Source: a virus
DNA length: 64,000 bases
Virus record (IMG/VR): IMGVR_UViG_3300042389_000724
Span: 31,390 to 95,389 of that record
Strand: one strand, 5' to 3'
The position numbers and the translations under genes were made by a program. The notes beneath the pieces are model-generated. The model saw only the letters and a program-made list of their open reading frames with translations, did not search any database and was not told the DNA's origin. How positions within the stretch are numbered: position 1 is the first letter of the stretch; each line of letters opens with the position of its first letter. Shown in pieces: positions 3,766 through 63,903 of the stretch.

Positions 3766-4008
3766 ATGTATATTTCCGAAAGCAAGGCTAACATGGACAT
3801 CAACAACATCCGTTTTCCCCGTGAAGTAGAAACCCATGTCAAGAAGTATGAAGTTTCGTATATTGATGCGGTCATAGCCGTGTGTGAGCGGTTTGGTATT
3901 GAGCCACAGGTTGCTGCCAAATTCTTGAGCAAGCCCATCATTGAAAAAATCAAGGCTGAGGGGCAGGAATTGAACCTGCTTCCCAAAAAGTCAAAACTGC
4001 CTGTTTGA
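3766..4008 (+). CDS. 33: gp33-like late transcription co-activator
   Basis: The protein of up to 80 residues matches T4 gp33 over its core: SYIDAVIAVCERFGIEP corresponds to the T4 SYLEATTAFLEENSIPE segment, followed by AKFLSKPIIEKIKAE and ELNLLP. In T4, gp33 binds the beta flap of host RNA polymerase and links it to the sliding clamp so that gp55 promoters are activated. Here the C terminus ends in KKSKLPV and lacks the hydrophobic TLDFLL-type clamp-binding tail. Gene 33 next to gene 32 is T4-like, but gene 59, which lies between them in T4, is missing here. An alternative start at 3793 (MDINN) has a better-spaced AAGG site and would give 71 residues; the true start is uncertain. Confidence 0.88.
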   Translation: MYISESKANMDINNIRFPREVETHVKKYEVSYIDAVIAVCERFGIEPQVAAKFLSKPIIEKIKAEGQELNLLPKKSKLPV

Positions 4009-30900: not shown

Positions 30901-32873
30901 TCGACAACAAGAAGTACACCAAGACAATCAAGCCAAATCCTTCGAATAATGTAAACTGGTTGGGTTTCTTGAAGATCACTCCTCAAGTGACCACCATTTA
31001 TGACAAATCGGTAAGACCTGTTGTGAAAACCAATTCTCTCATGGAGAATGATAATTGGCTTTCATCTAACGCAAATGATGATCGTGGATTCGGTACTCAA
31101 TGGAACGATTGGGAGAGCATTTGGTTTGGGATTAACGATATAGAGGAAGAGCAGCAGGACATACAGAACCGAATTCTACAAACTCCTCGTATAAATTCCG
31201 AGTCTTCGGTTTCCAATATCAATTCTGGAAATGTCAAAGTTTCAGCAAGCAGAAACGCACAATCTGTGGATCAGCGCACAAGTAGTTTCATGCGTACCAG
31301 ATATCTGAAAAACCGAATCAAGACAAAAATCGAAAACAAAATAATCGACAGAAGTGTAATTCCATATATCCCATATCAAACTGTGTCGGGATTGGCTACT
31401 GGACTGAAGCCAAATTCTCAGAGTCTTTCTGTGTTCTTTGACAGTGATCTTGTGTTGTCTGGAGTTACGAGTGATGAAAACGGTACATCAAGGTTTTCGT
31501 TTGACATCATAAACTCTTCTGCGCTAGTAGGAAGCAGAACTGTTCGTATTTCTGATGCAGACGCAATTGAAAATTCTACTCTTTCTGCTGATGCGGTTTA
31601 CCACTGCTCTGGGATTTTGAATCAGAGAGATTCTGGATCTTTTTCTACAAGACCCCCAGAACTACGCAGGCAGTCTGTTAATAGTGAAACCATAGCAAAA
31701 GATCCGTTCAACCGCGATCTTGATACAATCGAAAACAATCAGTGGTCAGATCCTCTTTCACAAACATTCTTTGTCGATAAGAAAACGAATGCAGAAGGAA
31801 TTTTCCTTAACAGCGTTTCTCTATTCTTCTCGTCCAAGGATTCGAAACTGCCTGTTGCTGTTCAGATTCGTCCCACTCTTTCGGGATATCCTTCTCCATC
31901 TGTTGTTCTGCCTTTCAGTACAGTTGTCAAGATGCCTTCTGAAGTAAATGCATCTAGCGTTCCAGCCGAAACCAAGTTTGAGTTCAGCAGTCCTGTGTAT
32001 TTGGAACCTGGAGAATATTCGATTTGTGTTTTGACAAACAGCGATGACTATGAGTTGTTTGCTGCCGAGTCTTCGTTCAACTCCATACCAAATTCTTCTT
32101 CCACATCTGGAAGAGCAGGAAACAATCAATTGGTGGGAACGCTCTTTGTTGCACAGGGATTGGGTGCTGCTGTTCCAGACAATACCACGGATCTTATGTT
32201 CTCATTGGAACGCTGCGAGTTTGCTTCTCAAGGAACATATAGCATCAATGGTGCTACCAATCTTTCCGATGTTCAAGTAGTGAAGTTTTATTCGAGTGAG
32301 ATTATTCCGAGTGGTTGTTCGATCAGCCGACAGATCGGAACAACAGAATTTTACAATGGAGAGTCGATTTATCCAGAGACTGCTATTACACCAAACATAG
32401 TCTATACACTTCGTCGTGGTGCGAGTAATGCAGTTTCTCCAGTCTTCGACAGGCAGACTCTTGTTGGAACATCCGTTCAAATGTACACCAATCGCACCTC
32501 CACATCTCCTTATTCTGAATATGTGTCACGAGTTGTTGAGTTGCCCGACTACATTACTTCCAATGGTATTGCGGTTTTCGTGGATGAAAACACTCCCACT
32601 CAAACACAGATAAGCGTACAGTACCGATGCAGCGTTTCTGGCGAGACTGATATTTTTGACAAGCCTTGGGCGAATCTCAGTAGAAGTTTGAATACTCCAC
32701 AATTCACCAGTTCTTCGGATCTTGACTTCCGAGAGGCAGAGTTCAGGGGTGTTACCAGTTCATTCCAGTCCTATCAGATTAAAGTGAGACTGTCTTCTGC
32801 TGCATCCCCAACATATTCAAGAACTCCATCTGTTAGAAATATTCGTACCATCAGTTTCATACAACCAACCTAA
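27942..32873 (+). CDS. DUF4815-type baseplate/virion protein at the gp9-gp10 position
   Basis: A 1643-residue protein whose N terminus has the DUF4815 signature: NINPYYDDFDAAKGFLRVLF, KPGYAVQARELTQAQTLLQNQLSKIGDHLFKDG, IIGGGISV. The middle carries TSTHQF, VFSISSIVNQAD, NCIDFRRSG and SHYLPRIDKICLK, and the C terminus a conserved DPLSQTFFVDKKTNAEGIFL block followed by EYSICVLTNSDDYELF. Proteins of this kind lie in the baseplate cluster of T4-like marine phages and probably act as the outer wedge (gp9/gp10 role). GAGG precedes the ATG. It is followed without gap by a short coiled-coil gene. Confidence 0.78.
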   Translation: MAYDPSIFNINPYYDDFDAAKGFLRVLFKPGYAVQARELTQAQTLLQNQLSKIGDHLFKDGSRIIGGGISVRNASYIMVDAGVSSPLLGATNYEDLIGSVLTSSIDGDLTEARVVHYVAPDVSSDGLLVLIVDFVSGFAFESSFNLTKGSFQYNGFVPAPSAFLDGVEYPSTGTCKLVSVNEGVFYIDGFFVRSSTQFFSPYEKNAVRRDFRFDGFSQLNKKIGFLITRDGVTERDDNTLRDPAIGSYNYNAPGADRYKITPVLSQVELLDTPDDFVELVRFEGGKVVKKADRISYGEIEKTLARRTFDESGSYSVNPFDISIKRTADSTEYFNLVMGQGKAYILGQEVENAYPKVLPFPRAQTVQEEGTSSPLSYDFSTGNYLDVTFNSDSQTLFASNLPSIASGSVLARFFGTTNNTVATGYVHGAIPTNANGVSAKTYRLYLYGISGAVQSGRSACIYLHTNGNTLGRFAPSSGTTFPSPSQTVQQSLVYEVTPGYAVSDFSSLRVVGKLVGGNTNLVAASHTAPNTTYSVTKDHFSDSLVSPSSSVFSFFNYGSGANTSSSDTQEIAIIDQNGNAFVPPASGTILSSVDTSQFSLVITNAANGFTSGSFRIAAPVIYTPVISDVNTYRYKTTATSTHQFVTNSFKTDSVGRKYFTLPHIDVFSISSIVNQADQQIFADDFELDDGQRESHYENARLYIKENASSKSVYNGTAGTAITLVVSYSRFTHNGLQCAPFIGKHSYTDLEYEKIPLYTNPRTGKTVSLANCIDFRRSGLTSSVAMLKPYGRSEFGTIGDTQIKYSHYLPRIDKICLKADVEDGSPLFFLESGTPDISPVSPSDPADSLVLATLTVPAYTHNPEDIMISPVNSKRYTMSDIGRMEKRVDDVEVFTKLSLSETELETRSLKTSVSQTEPLKTSIFVDELYGHSSSDVVSNFHSCSIDLERSELRPFFVPFDVGFVEGVTSDTRESADGIVTLNYTSKLYIDNKKYTKTIKPNPSNNVNWLGFLKITPQVTTIYDKSVRPVVKTNSLMENDNWLSSNANDDRGFGTQWNDWESIWFGINDIEEEQQDIQNRILQTPRINSESSVSNINSGNVKVSASRNAQSVDQRTSSFMRTRYLKNRIKTKIENKIIDRSVIPYIPYQTVSGLATGLKPNSQSLSVFFDSDLVLSGVTSDENGTSRFSFDIINSSALVGSRTVRISDADAIENSTLSADAVYHCSGILNQRDSGSFSTRPPELRRQSVNSETIAKDPFNRDLDTIENNQWSDPLSQTFFVDKKTNAEGIFLNSVSLFFSSKDSKLPVAVQIRPTLSGYPSPSVVLPFSTVVKMPSEVNASSVPAETKFEFSSPVYLEPGEYSICVLTNSDDYELFAAESSFNSIPNSSSTSGRAGNNQLVGTLFVAQGLGAAVPDNTTDLMFSLERCEFASQGTYSINGATNLSDVQVVKFYSSEIIPSGCSISRQIGTTEFYNGESIYPETAITPNIVYTLRRGASNAVSPVFDRQTLVGTSVQMYTNRTSTSPYSEYVSRVVELPDYITSNGIAVFVDENTPTQTQISVQYRCSVSGETDIFDKPWANLSRSLNTPQFTSSSDLDFREAEFRGVTSSFQSYQIKVRLSSAASPTYSRTPSVRNIRTISFIQPT

Positions 32874-59880: not shown

Positions 59881-60315
59881 ATGACGCTAGATGACATCAG
59901 AAAAGAAATTGAACGGGATGTGAGATTGGACGAAACGGCTCTTGATCTTGAGTCGCTTAAGATTCCGCAACTGCACAGCAAGTACTTGAACTTTTTGACT
60001 GATGAAAAATTGTGTCTTCGAAAAATGGAAGGCGACTACTCTGTTCTCATGCGTGCTAAGTGGGAATACTACACGGGCAAGATGTCTCAAGAAGAATTGA
60101 CTGCCCGTGGATGGGAGCAGTTCCCTCTAAAGATTCTCCGTAATGATCTTGATCTGTATCTTCAGGGTGATTCGGATCTAAACAAAAGTAGACAAAAAAT
60201 GGAGTATCAAAAGGAAAAGATCTCCTTGCTTGAAGAAATAGTAAAGGAACTCAACAATCGTCATTGGAAGATTCGATGTGCGATTGATTGGAGAAAATTT
60301 GTCAATGGACAGTGA
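59881..60315 (+). CDS. uvsY: UvsY-like recombination mediator
   Basis: A 144-residue protein near T4 UvsY (137). Matching features are the start TLDDIRKEIERDVRLDETALDLES, LHSKYLNFL, RKMEGDYSVLMRAKWEYYTGKM, and a C-terminal helix with WKIRCAIDWRKFVNGQ. UvsY loads UvsX recombinase onto gp32-covered single-stranded DNA. GGAG lies seven bases before the ATG and a sigma70-type promoter lies upstream. It overlaps the next gene by eleven bases. Confidence 0.93.
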   Translation: MTLDDIRKEIERDVRLDETALDLESLKIPQLHSKYLNFLTDEKLCLRKMEGDYSVLMRAKWEYYTGKMSQEELTARGWEQFPLKILRNDLDLYLQGDSDLNKSRQKMEYQKEKISLLEEIVKELNNRHWKIRCAIDWRKFVNGQ

Positions 60316-60856
60316 CTTTTCAAAAGTTCTTTCGGTTGACACCAAGAATTGGTGGGTTGATCGTATGTACTTGCAAGACGCTGTTCATGCGGCGAGACAC
60401 AGTACCGATCCAAGCACACAGGTAGGAGCAGTTCTTGTTGTTCCTACAGGCACTGGTGTAATCCTAAAGAACTGGAATCGTGTGCCTAATCGCTTGAAGC
60501 AGTCTGGCTACCCTTTAAATATTAGCGACAAGAATCACTGCACGGAACACGCAGAAAGATCTGTGGTATATGATGCACTGCAAAAAGGGATTCCTACTAC
60601 TGGACTCACCATGTATTGCACATGGGCTTCTTGTTCCGAGTGTTCTCGCGCAATCATTAGTTTTGGAGTAACCCGAGTAGTCACATTTACTCGTTTGGTT
60701 GAGCGCACACCAGAAAGATGGAAGACTAGTATATTTCAGGGTCTTCGTATGATGCGAGACTGTGGAATCTCTGTTGTTGGTTGGCACGGAGACATAGGTA
60801 CTAATGTTTGTCTCAAGTTTGATGGTGAGTACATAACGGAGAAGACACTAGAATGA
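60305..60856 (+). CDS. dCMP deaminase-family protein
   Basis: 183 residues from the ATG at 60305; a GTG at 60278 inside uvsY is less likely. The zinc site is HAE in TEHAERSVVYDAL (His ligand and catalytic Glu) with the second motif CSEC in ASCSECSRAIISFGV; the residue before the first Cys is Ser rather than the usual Pro. Preceding DPSTQVGAVLV is the classic substrate-loop segment. It likely makes dUMP from dCMP for thymidylate synthesis. A cytidine or modified-base deaminase is possible. It lies between two recombination genes and overlaps both. Confidence 0.85.
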   Translation: MDSDFSKVLSVDTKNWWVDRMYLQDAVHAARHSTDPSTQVGAVLVVPTGTGVILKNWNRVPNRLKQSGYPLNISDKNHCTEHAERSVVYDALQKGIPTTGLTMYCTWASCSECSRAIISFGVTRVVTFTRLVERTPERWKTSIFQGLRMMRDCGISVVGWHGDIGTNVCLKFDGEYITEKTLE

Positions 60857-62358
60857 TGTTTGACCTTGATGTGAGCGTAGTGGATTCGGTTTATGTTCGT
60901 GTGCAGTGCGACAGAGGAATCGCGCATGAACTGTCTGATTACTTCACATTCAAGGTGCCTGGCTACAAGTTCATGCCTGCATATCGTTCTCGTTTGTGGA
61001 ACGGTGAGATCAAACTGTACAACATCCATAGCCAACTCATCTACGCGGGTTTGGTGGACTACATCAAGAAGTTCGCGGACGAGCGACAGTACACCGTCAC
61101 CTTCCCTGCGCGAAACGAAATCAACATCACGCCTGACGCTGTGAGAAAGTTTATGCAGGACTTCTTACAGGTTCATGTTGGTGGCAAGAAGGTGGACGCA
61201 CACGATCACCAAGTAAACGCGGTGCATCATGCGATGCAGCAGGAGCGATGCTTGCTCCTGTCTCCCACAGGCAGCGGCAAGAGCCTCATCATCTACACGC
61301 TCCTGCGGTACTACTTGGACAAGATTCCATCGGACAAGAAGGTATTGATCGTGGTTCCAACGGTGTCTCTCGTAGAGCAGATGCTTTCCGATTTCACGGA
61401 CTACTCGTCTGCGAACGGGTGGAGCGTGAAGAGCAACTGCCACAAGATCATGTCGGGTGAGGAAAAGAACAGCGACAAGCGGGTAGTGGTGTCCACTTGG
61501 CAGAGCATATACAAGCAGAGCGAGAAGTGGTTTCAGCAGTTTGGTGCAGTGGTTGGTGATGAGGCTCACCTGTTCAAGTCAAAGTCTCTCACCGCCATCA
61601 TGTCCAAACTAAAGACCTGTCCGTATCGCGTGGGAACCACGGGAACACTGGACGGAACCAATACTCACAAATTGGTGCTTGAAGGACTTTTTGGAAAAGC
61701 CTATGAAGTCACCAAAACAAAAACCCTGATGGAGAAGCAAATACTCAGCGATCTAAAGATTGAGTGTTTGCTGCTCTCATATCCTGATCTTGATCGTGAG
61801 TCTGTGAGGCGAGCGAAATATCAAGACGAGATCAAGTGGATCATCGGCTCCAAGCGGCGCAACGCATTCATCGCTGGTATGTGTCAGCGACTGAAGGGCA
61901 ACTCCCTCATACTATTTCAATTCGTAGAAGACCACGGAAAGGTGCTAAATAGTCTTGTGAGGGCTTGCGTTCCTCCCGAGCGTAAGGTATTCTTTGTGCA
62001 TGGTGGTACGGAGGCTGCTGATAGAGAGGAGATTCGTAAGATTGTTGAAAGCGAGTCCGATGCAGTAATCATCGCATCATATGGCACATTCAGCACAGGA
62101 ATCTCTATCCGCCGCCTCCATAACATCATATTCGCCTCACCGTCCAAATCCCGCATTCGTGTCCTACAGAGCATAGGGCGACAGTTGCGGGTGTCACAGG
62201 ACAAAACGGTGGCGCGACTTTACGACATCGGTGATGACCTTTCGTGGAAATCTTGGAAAAACCACACGCTACGACACATGAACGAGCGTATGAGATTGTA
62301 CGAAACGGAAGGGTTTGAACACAAACTAGTCAAGATACAGTTAGGAGAAGACGCATGA
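60853..62358 (+). CDS. uvsW: UvsW-like DNA/RNA helicase
   Basis: A 501-residue superfamily 2 helicase equal in length to T4 UvsW. The N-terminal domain includes YFTFKVPGYKFMPAYRSRLWNGEIKLY. Motif I is SPTGSGKS at 137-144, motif II DEAH at 236-239, motif III TGT near 266, and motif VI QSIGRQLR near 447-454. UvsW unwinds R-loops and branched DNA and ends origin-dependent replication. It begins in the dCMP-deaminase stop codon and overlaps the Sm-like gene by four bases. Confidence 0.96.
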   Translation: MMFDLDVSVVDSVYVRVQCDRGIAHELSDYFTFKVPGYKFMPAYRSRLWNGEIKLYNIHSQLIYAGLVDYIKKFADERQYTVTFPARNEINITPDAVRKFMQDFLQVHVGGKKVDAHDHQVNAVHHAMQQERCLLLSPTGSGKSLIIYTLLRYYLDKIPSDKKVLIVVPTVSLVEQMLSDFTDYSSANGWSVKSNCHKIMSGEEKNSDKRVVVSTWQSIYKQSEKWFQQFGAVVGDEAHLFKSKSLTAIMSKLKTCPYRVGTTGTLDGTNTHKLVLEGLFGKAYEVTKTKTLMEKQILSDLKIECLLLSYPDLDRESVRRAKYQDEIKWIIGSKRRNAFIAGMCQRLKGNSLILFQFVEDHGKVLNSLVRACVPPERKVFFVHGGTEAADREEIRKIVESESDAVIIASYGTFSTGISIRRLHNIIFASPSKSRIRVLQSIGRQLRVSQDKTVARLYDIGDDLSWKSWKNHTLRHMNERMRLYETEGFEHKLVKIQLGEDA

Positions 62359-63251
62359 GAAGATCAAAGAAGTCGGAACTCAGAGTCTTCAAACTTCGTA
62401 GCGGTGAAGAGATTATTGCGAAGGTTGCTGGCAAGTCGAAGGACAAGATCAAGTTGCAGCGTCCGATGAAGATCGTGGAAAACTATCAGACCGATCCTTT
62501 CACGGGAGCAAAGCGGCAGTTTGTCTTCTTTACAAATTGGCTCGGAAACACCGCAGAACTGTCTGCTGATATTCCGCTTGACTTCATTGTGGTAGAACTG
62601 TCTCCTGATCCTGACATGATCTCGCTGTACTCCAAGCAGACAGAAATAGAAGACACGAACAACACCCCTGCTCCAAAGAATCCAAAGTCTCTGTTTCCGA
62701 ACATGAGCGAAGCAGACATTCAGAAAATGTCTGATGAGATTGACGAGAAACTAGAAGAGATGCTGAAGCAGTTGGCTAGCGAAGAACCGCAGGGATCTTC
62801 TGGAGGTGCCATAAATCCTATTCCAGTGGATTGGAATGCTTCAAATCCGCCCAATCCTCTTCCACTCACTCCACCGTTGCCGTTCATCAATCCTGGTATG
62901 GGAATTCCTCCGCGATTGCCAAATTCTATTCTGTTCAGCGTGAGCATTCCGCAGGACATACTTGCTGCTTGGGTAGAGAGTGGATTCATCGACTATCTCA
63001 AAGACAGCGTTCAAGATTTCATGACCACAGATTTTCTTGAAGAGATTATGAACGATGAAGAGGACGAGGTTCCGCAGAAGCCAAAGAAGAAGCGGAACAA
63101 GCGTGAAAAGATTTCCAAGGACGAGTGGAAAGAGCCGTCCGAAGATTTGAAAAAGAAGCCCAACTACGGGAACAGCCACGAAGACTGGTCGCCGTACCTG
63201 AAGGACTACTTGCCAGAGCAAGAGCCTCCAAAAAATGAAGATGAGGGTTGA
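62355..63251 (+). CDS. Sm-like N-terminal domain protein with proline-rich and charged tail
   Basis: A 298-residue protein. Residues 8-95 resemble an Sm/LSm fold: RVFKLRSGEEIIAKVAGKSKDKIKLQRPMKIVE, then FVFFTNWLGN and the long strand DFIVVELSPDPDMISLY. A helical region (EADIQKMSDEIDEKLEEML) and a Pro-rich stretch at about 158-195 follow, then an acidic and basic C terminus (KPKKKRNKREK, EDWSPYLKDYLPEQEPP). AGGAG precedes the ATG. It is the last gene of the uvsY-uvsW run, directly before the gp55 promoter. RNA binding is a guess; no function is known to me. Confidence 0.68.
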   Translation: MRRSKKSELRVFKLRSGEEIIAKVAGKSKDKIKLQRPMKIVENYQTDPFTGAKRQFVFFTNWLGNTAELSADIPLDFIVVELSPDPDMISLYSKQTEIEDTNNTPAPKNPKSLFPNMSEADIQKMSDEIDEKLEEMLKQLASEEPQGSSGGAINPIPVDWNASNPPNPLPLTPPLPFINPGMGIPPRLPNSILFSVSIPQDILAAWVESGFIDYLKDSVQDFMTTDFLEEIMNDEEDEVPQKPKKKRNKREKISKDEWKEPSEDLKKKPNYGNSHEDWSPYLKDYLPEQEPPKNEDEG

Positions 63252-63275
63252 CAAAAACACTACATGATGGATAAT
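63248..63275 (+). promoter_or_regulatory. Sigma70-type promoter of gp55
   Basis: TTGACA (63248-63253), 16 bases, then GATAAT (63270-63275), 19 bases before the gp55 ATG at 63295. It begins inside the stop region of the previous gene and is the best of the three promoters with this layout. Confidence 0.72.
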
Positions 63276-63294
63276 GATCCGTGAAAGGCATACG

Positions 63295-63903
63295 ATGGCA
63301 AAAAAGAAAAGTGAACATTACATAGACAATCAGCAGTTTTTTGAAGAGATGCGCGAGTGGAAGACTCTTGTGAATGCAGCAGACAAGGCGGGGTCGCCGC
63401 ACCCGCCTGTCACGCACTACATTGGCGAGTGCTTTATGAAGATTGCGGAGAACCTGTCCCGCAAGCCGAACTTCATCAACTATCCGTATCGTGACGAGAT
63501 GATCTCTGACGGCATAGAGAACTGCCTGCTGTACGCATACAACTTTGATCCGTCCAAGTCCAAGAATCCATTCTCGTACTTTACGCAGATCATCTACTAT
63601 GCTTTCCTTCGCCGTATTCAGAAGGAAAAAAAGCAGGCATACATCAAACTGAAGAAGATTGAGATGAGCGATGTAGACTCGCAGATGAAGAAGTGGTTTC
63701 GTGAGAACTACCTGAAGGTTGGCGACAACTTTGAGACTCTGCCGACATTCCTCACCGAAAACGACATCAACTCGTTTGAGAAGAAGACAGGTGAGGCTGA
63801 AATCGTTGTGGACGAGCCACTAGAAAAGCCGAAGAAGACCACGAAGCCAAAGAAGCCTTCAAAGCCGAAGGCAAAGGTTTCAAAGAAAGGCAAGAAGAAG
63901 TGA
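63295..63903 (+). CDS. 55: gp55-like late sigma factor
   Basis: 202 residues from the ATG at 63295, chosen because GAAAGG lies just ahead and because an earlier ATG at 63274 overlaps the -10 box. Features match T4 gp55 (185): HYIDNQQFFEEMREWK, YIGECFMKIAENLSRKPNFINYPYRDEMISDGIENCLLYAYNFDPSK and NPFSYFTQIIYYAFLRRIQKEKKQ, the sigma region 2-like core. It directs host polymerase to late promoters. The T4 C-terminal SLDFLY clamp-binding motif is missing; the tail is instead Lys/Pro-rich. Confidence 0.93.
   Translation: MAKKKSEHYIDNQQFFEEMREWKTLVNAADKAGSPHPPVTHYIGECFMKIAENLSRKPNFINYPYRDEMISDGIENCLLYAYNFDPSKSKNPFSYFTQIIYYAFLRRIQKEKKQAYIKLKKIEMSDVDSQMKKWFRENYLKVGDNFETLPTFLTENDINSFEKKTGEAEIVVDEPLEKPKKTTKPKKPSKPKAKVSKKGKKK

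Follow-up and report, generated by a model that had tools for sequence, protein, structure and literature searches.

A long form of a phage Sm-like protein, with a predicted Sm fold and conserved C-terminal modules, encoded between uvsW and gene 55

Described relatives of the Sm-like protein

The 64,000-nucleotide stretch analyzed here (the window; positions 31390 to 95389 of the 95,389-base virus record IMGVR_UViG_3300042389_000724) contains, between uvsW and the late sigma factor gene 55, an open reading frame (ORF) for a protein whose N-terminal part is predicted to have an Sm fold. Of the described systems, 3by7 (JCVI_PEP_1096686650277, an Sm-like protein from a marine metagenome) has the same fold and belongs to the same profile family but is only ~21% identical to the window protein, has 100 residues, and lacks the long extension. 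It is deposited with five chains, and its sequence is also part of the entries of the 60-mer TIP60. The crystal structure was reportedly described by Das and coworkers in 2009, and the protein is said to be a pentamer in solution. T4-GC 139 (phrog_471) shares the N-terminal domain (E 3e-7) and the place between uvsW and gp55, but its members have only ~125 to 145 amino acids (aa), and their tail, a conserved helix-like segment, has neither of the two long-form modules. T4-GC 176 (phrog_431) and phrog_527 are of the same Sm family but differ in locus; their genes are flanked by gp43 and a RecA-like gene or lie next to regA/hsp20 and gp43. The likeness to Hfq, archaeal SmAP, and eukaryotic Sm/LSm proteins is one of fold, with Sm/LSm chains matching at Z scores of 7.6 and below.

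The fold match to 3by7, the T4-GC 139 counterpart, and the Pfam family PF16243 (Sm_like) mean that the fold and the family were already known. The original prediction, made from the nucleotide sequence, had described a family of marine T4-like phages without a known function; this holds, but the family already has a Pfam entry, a crystal structure, and some members named "Sm-like domain-containing protein." As far as our literature search went, with most subscription papers outside it, the long form, the quantified uvsW-Sm-gp55 linkage, and the placement of 3by7 at a gp43-side locus appear to be new, and a form extended by two conserved C-terminal modules seems not to have been described before.

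The Sm domain and the C-terminal modules

An Sm fold of residues 7 to 101 of the window protein is supported by structure prediction and by structural and profile comparisons. In the AlphaFold2 model, strands at residues 9 to 14, 19 to 27, 31 to 46, 53 to 61, 70 to 74, and 78 to 82 are followed by a helix at residues 86 to 101, with block pLDDT values of 90 to 97 across residues 11 to 100 and an overall mean of 74.6. Hand-picked representatives served as input (57 rows for the full model and 39 rows for a model of the C-terminal fragment), and all structure predictions were of single chains. The top Foldseek matches were 3by7 and the designed TIP60, followed mostly by spliceosomal Sm/LSm proteins among the 50 matches listed, and VIA-align superposed the domain on chain 3by7_C with a Z score of 13.7 and a root mean square deviation of 1.0 Å over 82 residues. 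A profile built from 30 family sequences (whole short forms and the N-terminal parts of long ones) matched 3by7 at an E value of 1.9e-9. The N-terminal Sm-like fold proposed in the original prediction was thus recovered by prediction of an Sm barrel and its comparison with LSm proteins.

PF16243 matched 20 of the 30 family sequences at an E value of ≤10 and 22 of 57 proteins at an E value of ≤1 (best, 8e-11), and one relative (L135) scored 41.6 bits, above the gathering cut-off of 29.4. The window protein itself had no match to a Pfam Sm family, PF16243 included, at an E value of ≤1, which weighs against the fold assignment. It matched phrog_527 (2.6e-7), phrog_471 (3.2e-7), and phrog_431 (6e-4) in PHROGs, which have no curated cut-off, and by profile it belongs to this phage Sm-like family. 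The residues invariant in the family are K13, L14, G17, E18, E19, P37, W62, and Y92.

The proline-rich and charged extensions of the original prediction are present, but they are not merely of low complexity, as two conserved modules, one helical and one forming the C-terminal tail, lie within them (Table 1). Among 33 core long forms (the set without L077, L078, L079, L081, L083, and L084), the mean pairwise identity was 0.63 in the Sm domain, 0.63 in the tail (residues 256 to 286), and 0.72 in the tail core (residues 270 to 286); the corresponding values for all 39 long forms were 0.56, 0.54, and 0.64. The tail core, YGN..xDWSPxxKDY, is thus more conserved than the Sm domain, and the 39 sequences share one invariant Gly and an invariant Asp-Trp in the tail. 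Nine relatives (L008 to L018; alignment A1) were 69 to 74% identical to the window protein in the Sm domain and 83 to 95% identical in residues 250 to 290, and a tenth (L021) was 72% and 71% identical, respectively. Complete proteins of the closer kin of the window have 273 to 299 aa, those of a more distant set (L077 to L085) have 229 to 268 aa, and those of the cyanophages and the Methylophilales phage have ~125 to 145 aa. Among the first 50 viral-structure matches, none was of the long-form length, the targets having 79 to 181 residues and one of them 605.

No other reading frame contains the tail motif, whether in the window, in G000 (1 to 39800), or in the relative G003. The C-terminal modules alone gave no PDB profile match below an E value of 0.29 and no Foldseek match at an E value of ≤10. 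The most frequent of the weak PHROG matches, phrog_901 (11 of the 39 members; best E value, 0.0035), was rejected as the family of the C-terminal module and taken as a chance match, because it was found in only 1 of 10 records and there only as the Sm ORF itself. When the C-terminal fragment was modeled alone, the helices of the helical module were found again and the module retained its predicted confidence. The block pLDDT of the tail (approximately residues 256 to 285) was 75 to 90 in the full model versus 69 to 77 in the fragment model; this lower value without the Sm domain is a weak hint that the tail may pack on that domain, the two models having been made from different alignments (57 versus 39 rows).

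Gene order and further Sm genes

The Sm gene is real, conserved, and under purifying selection. In 15 pairwise comparisons of the Sm segment with the window, dN/dS was 0.02 to 0.10 in 10 and 0.11 to 0.12 in 4, and it was not computable in one (L016), where dS was saturated.

Relatives were collected from IMG/VR for the close kin and through Methylophilales phage and cyanophage queries for the shorter forms, and four of the searches kept the best 80 (of 109, of 118, of 191 for locus B as defined below, and of 143 for gp55). The resulting 150 family loci, many of them near-identical, include the window copy (L023) and three named phages. uvsW was directly upstream in 143 of the 146 loci having >150 bases upstream; the three exceptions were L007, in which uvsW aligned in part, P-HM1 (L026), in which uvsW is annotated as two ORFs, and L111, which has 166 bases upstream. 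gp55 was downstream in all 138 Sm loci with room for it. Because nearly all of the loci had been found through the Sm gene, a reverse test was run from gp55: among the best 80 of 143 gp55 relatives, 75 had an Sm ORF directly upstream, 2 were too short, and 3 were without one (L453, with 576 nucleotides [nt] upstream; L483, with 769 nt upstream; and L484, with an Sm ORF ~0.9 kb away). These counts show that the uvsW-Sm-gp55 order is near-absolute. All of the Kyanoviridae-like lineages examined (the kin of the window, cyanophages, Pelagibacter phage Mosig, and Methylophilales phage Melnitz-3) retain the trio.

The Sm gene is the positional counterpart of cyanophage T4-GC 139, and its location between uvsW and gp55 agrees with orthology. 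T4-GC 139 is annotated "methylamine utilization," and the same label is used in Mosig. T4 and Vibrio phage D484 had no match to phrog_527 or phrog_431 at an E value of ≤0.01. A tblastn search of phage records with the window protein gave nothing at an E value of ≤0.01, and one with its first 107 residues only gave 46 records at an E value of 0.4 or worse, of which 33 are cyanophages by name. One cellular homologue was found among genome contigs, on a contig of a metagenome-assembled genome labeled Neomarinimicrobiota.

Phage Sm families were matched in all eight Kyanoviridae-like records searched, the window's own among them, and seven of these had at least one further Sm copy; the window's record, which may be incomplete, had one match. 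Syn1 and P-HM1 have their extra copies between hsp20 and gp43, near regA, either just before gp43 or one gene before it, and Mosig has an extra copy, found with 3by7, just before or one gene before gp43. In Syn33 the extra copy is among gp45/44/62/regA, and in Melnitz-3 it is near recA. The kin G003 and G004 have the order gp43-Sm-uvsX-helicase (locus B), in which gp43 was identified by similarity and uvsX (RecA-like) and the helicase were identified by reading ORFs; locus A has the order uvsY ... uvsW-Sm-55-47. In P-HM1 (NC_015280; 130608 to 132094), a run of four hypothetical genes immediately precedes gp43, and three of these match Sm families, one of them weakly; together with the uvsW-side copy, this makes four Sm matches.

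The best phage match of 3by7 is not the uvsW-gp55 gene but the locus-B gene of Mosig, beside a glutathione-synthetase-like gene, and by this sequence match 3by7 is assigned to the gp43-side locus type. According to the accessible text of a 2008 paper, a 3by7 homologue was drawn on contigs with putative phage rimK genes, which agrees with the assignment (PMC2530865). Among the 3by7-type proteins (L329 to L408; 80 loci, 79 of them complete), a GLITETKLP-like peptide is conserved at the C-terminal end, beyond the Sm domain. A KLPV end shared by Mosig gp33 and the Mosig locus-B Sm protein was considered and rejected as a meaningful likeness: it was present in 3 of the 79 complete locus-B relatives (best 80 of 191; one identical tail), among which the GLITETKLP-like peptide is conserved.

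Both the ORF and its neighbors, as identified by Pfam and PHROGs, are as the original prediction had them (Table 1). The overlap of the Sm gene start codon with the uvsW stop codon may reflect translational coupling. Comparison with relatives makes a gp55 start at 63295 (MAKKK...) more likely than one at 63274. The gp55 proteins of the close kin of the window have a Lys-rich C-terminal end; a hydrophobic-acidic end is found instead in the Melnitz-type, D484, and L077/L078 gp55 proteins. The window gp33 (3766 to 4008) ends in PKKSKLPV. A dCMP deaminase-like ORF (60278 to 60856), with a GTG start overlapping uvsY, sits between uvsY and uvsW. The T4 late promoter sequence TATAAATA had no exact match in the 64-kb window (0.83 expected), from which no inference is drawn. 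TACATA was present within 70 bases upstream of 7 of 32 plus-strand genes of the window (a set of our own choosing), ~8 times the background rate, and is possibly a variant late promoter.

Table 1. Features of the Sm gene, its product, and its neighbors (window positions)
Feature	Position	Strand	Basis and remarks
uvsW, upstream neighbor	60853..62358	+	PF21241, E 7e-17; phrog_16, E 3e-99
AGGAG, Shine-Dalgarno-like sequence	62343..62347	+	Seven bases before ATG; read directly
ATGA, 4-nt overlap of Sm gene start codon and uvsW stop codon	62355..62358	+	
Sm-fold protein gene, long form	62355..63251	+	298 aa, ATG start; ORF call, 150-locus family, dN/dS
Sm domain, residues 7 to 101 (predicted; six strands, then helix 86 to 101)	62373..62657	+	AlphaFold2 and match to 3by7
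Helix (predicted), residues 116 to 143	62700..62783	+	AlphaFold2 helix 119 to 142, block pLDDT 81 to 82 for residues 121 to 140; identity 0.40 (33 core long forms)
Variable Pro/Gly-rich linker, residues 146 to 188	62790..62918	+	Identity 0.23 (33 core long forms); block pLDDT 40 to 53
Conserved helical module (predicted), residues 190 to 237 (ILFSVSIP..IL..WVESG.IDYLKD...DF)	62922..63065	+	AlphaFold2 helices 200 to 209, 211 to 223, and 225 to 233; identity 0.52 (33 core long forms)
Lys-rich segment, residues 238 to 255	63066..63119	+	Alignment A6
Conserved C-terminal tail, residues 256 to 286 (DEWKEP..DLKKKPNYGNSHEDWSPYLKDYL region)	63120..63212	+	Conservation in long forms
Gene 55 (late sigma factor), downstream neighbor	63274..63903	+	phrog_234, E 4e-58

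Possible functions of the Sm protein

The reading that we favor, tentatively and at somewhat less than an even chance, is that the protein is a phage-specific, ring-forming, nucleic-acid-binding Sm scaffold that belongs to the UvsW/gp55 module and docks a partner through its tails. It starts from the gene itself, the predicted Sm fold, the modular tail under strong constraint, the uvsW-Sm-gp55 order, and the further Sm genes of the gp43 block. The Sm-fold subunits would assemble into a small ring, a pentamer by analogy with 3by7, and the ring would bind single-stranded nucleic acid at the machinery of recombination-dependent replication or late transcription. The flexible Pro-rich linker of each subunit would display the helical module and the conserved C-terminal peptide, and the peptide would dock on a partner, most likely in the adjoining cluster (the UvsW helicase or the gp55-RNA polymerase) or in the replisome.

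Several points weigh against this scaffold. We infer the ring, the nucleic acid binding, the docking of the tail, and the choice of partner alike. The full AlphaFold2 model has a pTM of only 0.40. When all 39 long forms are counted, conservation of the tail as a whole falls slightly below that of the Sm domain, and only the tail core exceeds it. Tails also differ by lineage (the window type, the cyanophage helix of the GSVEEVKKNLESLFKRS type, and the Melnitz type, EWDEDYGE..TLH) and are not one motif, so partners or binding modes may differ. The canonical Sm1 motif contains G... and D-x-M-N, and Sm2 contains I-R-G; the D-x-M-N and I-R-G motifs are visible in the SmAP and Hfq sequences used for comparison. 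In the window protein, the D-x-M-N and R-G residues are not kept, and the Sm2 position reads IPLDFIVVEL. The hhalign comparison with an alignment of two archaeal SmAPs and Escherichia coli Hfq was not significant (Prob 0.15 and 0.75 on a scale of 0 to 100); its short local matches of 12 and 14 columns, FIIRMEQVITMS to VLIRGDNIVYIS and ILKMRSGEEVIART to IIKLKGDREFRGVL, are located at the Sm2 and Sm1 positions. The nonsignificant profile match therefore points to an Sm fold without the canonical Sm1/Sm2 signature. No Hfq family was among the Pfam and NCBIfam matches of the window protein, and Hfq was not among the Foldseek and VIA-align matches listed, an absence that does not exclude Hfq there. 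The tail, too, differs from those of the Hfq, SmAP, and Sm/LSm proteins.

The same differences weigh against the role given in the original prediction, a posttranscriptional RNA-chaperone-type regulator of the early-to-late switch, here read as an Hfq-like ring acting on mRNA or small RNA. That role is unproven because neither the canonical Sm1/Sm2 residues nor a significant profile similarity to LSm/Hfq was found; moreover, the family-invariant residues do not correspond to the canonical pocket residues of the motifs as generally described, the neighbors of the gene are DNA recombination, replication, and sigma genes, and further paralogues lie among genes of DNA replication. A chaperone would fit the Sm fold, the adjacency of uvsW and gp55, and the presence, in Syn1, P-HM1, and Mosig, of another Sm copy close to regA, which encodes a translational repressor. 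Hfq is lacking in 10 of 12 Prochlorococcus strains, according to the accessible text of PMC2518516, and some cyanophage hosts might therefore be without the chaperone. The chaperone role finds no specific support here, and we consider it unlikely. The company of replication genes would suit, instead, an accessory of DNA replication and recombination, a ring that binds single-stranded or branched DNA and aids UvsW, UvsY, UvsX, and gp43, gp55 having no particular part in it. Such an accessory agrees with the orders of locus A and of locus B in G003 and G004 and with the Sm genes before gp43 in Syn1, P-HM1, and Mosig. However, gp55 adjoins the Sm gene downstream no less constantly than uvsW does upstream, and we know of no Sm-fold recombination mediator; this role, too, seems improbable.

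In a further reading, the tail would connect the gp55-RNA polymerase with the sliding clamp or some other factor and so take the place of the clamp-binding tails of T4 gp55 and gp33. In T4, gp33 ends in NTLDFLL and gp43 ends in SLDFLFG, and gp33 lacks that end in the other 11 records (10 Kyanoviridae-like ones, including the window's own, and D484), as do, by reading, the window-type and cyanophage gp55 proteins. In most cyanophage Sm proteins, the tail has an ending of the type NLESLF-KRS or KLDKIF-KK (L-[DE]-x-[LI]-[FY]), which is similar to the gp43 termini of the kin, [ST]L[DE]SLFA. In vitro, T4 gp33 requires its clamp-binding motif, according to the accessible part of one source (PMC7892883); another, likewise in its accessible part, describes binding of the clamp by S-PM2 gp33 as "not made obvious" by sequence (PMC2988020). 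However, the same 2010 review, in its accessible part, has gp55 homologues retaining the gp55 C-terminal motif (PMC2988020), the window's own tail has no clamp-like motif, and some P-HM1-type tails break the motif (LENSY) or carry N for the acidic residue (LNKIF). No tail was obtained from 20 of 81 P-HM1-type loci, in which the frame as read ends early, and the sequence of the cyanophage segment looks like that of a usual capped helix. Replacement of gp33 as simple gene loss was rejected, since every one of the 12 T4-like records has gp33 (phrog_254; L181 to L192) and no gene is missing. With no such motif in the window tail, a broken one in some cyanophage tails, and gp55 homologues that keep their end according to the review, we regard this late-transcription link as very unlikely. 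Further down the scale is a structural protein of the virion, which would suit the head and tail gene block (gp23 and the tail tube protein) ending just upstream. The Sm gene lies within the uvsY/uvsW/55/47 block and has paralogues beside gp43, and searches of Pfam and PHROGs gave no head or tail family for the window protein; 2 of the 39 C-terminal fragments weakly matched a virion-protein PHROG (best E value, 0.014). A virion role is extremely unlikely.

The scaffold could extend to a whole system, a speculation that we hold to be quite unlikely as it stands. Kyanoviridae-like T4 phages would have their own multisubunit Sm-ring system, in which the uvsW-gp55 and gp43/uvsX paralogues would form homo- or hetero-oligomeric rings. 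Their lineage-specific tails would couple recombination-dependent replication (R-loops, UvsW) to late transcription, replacing the clamp-binding tails seemingly absent from gp33 and often from gp55. The middle gene of the trio often carries the label "methylamine utilization," for which no support was found here. The finding bears on a question left, in its accessible part, by a review of T4 late transcription, namely, the role of gp33 in T4-like phages without an obvious clamp-binding end, and the Sm fold together with a defined conserved tail turns a hypothetical protein into a testable one.

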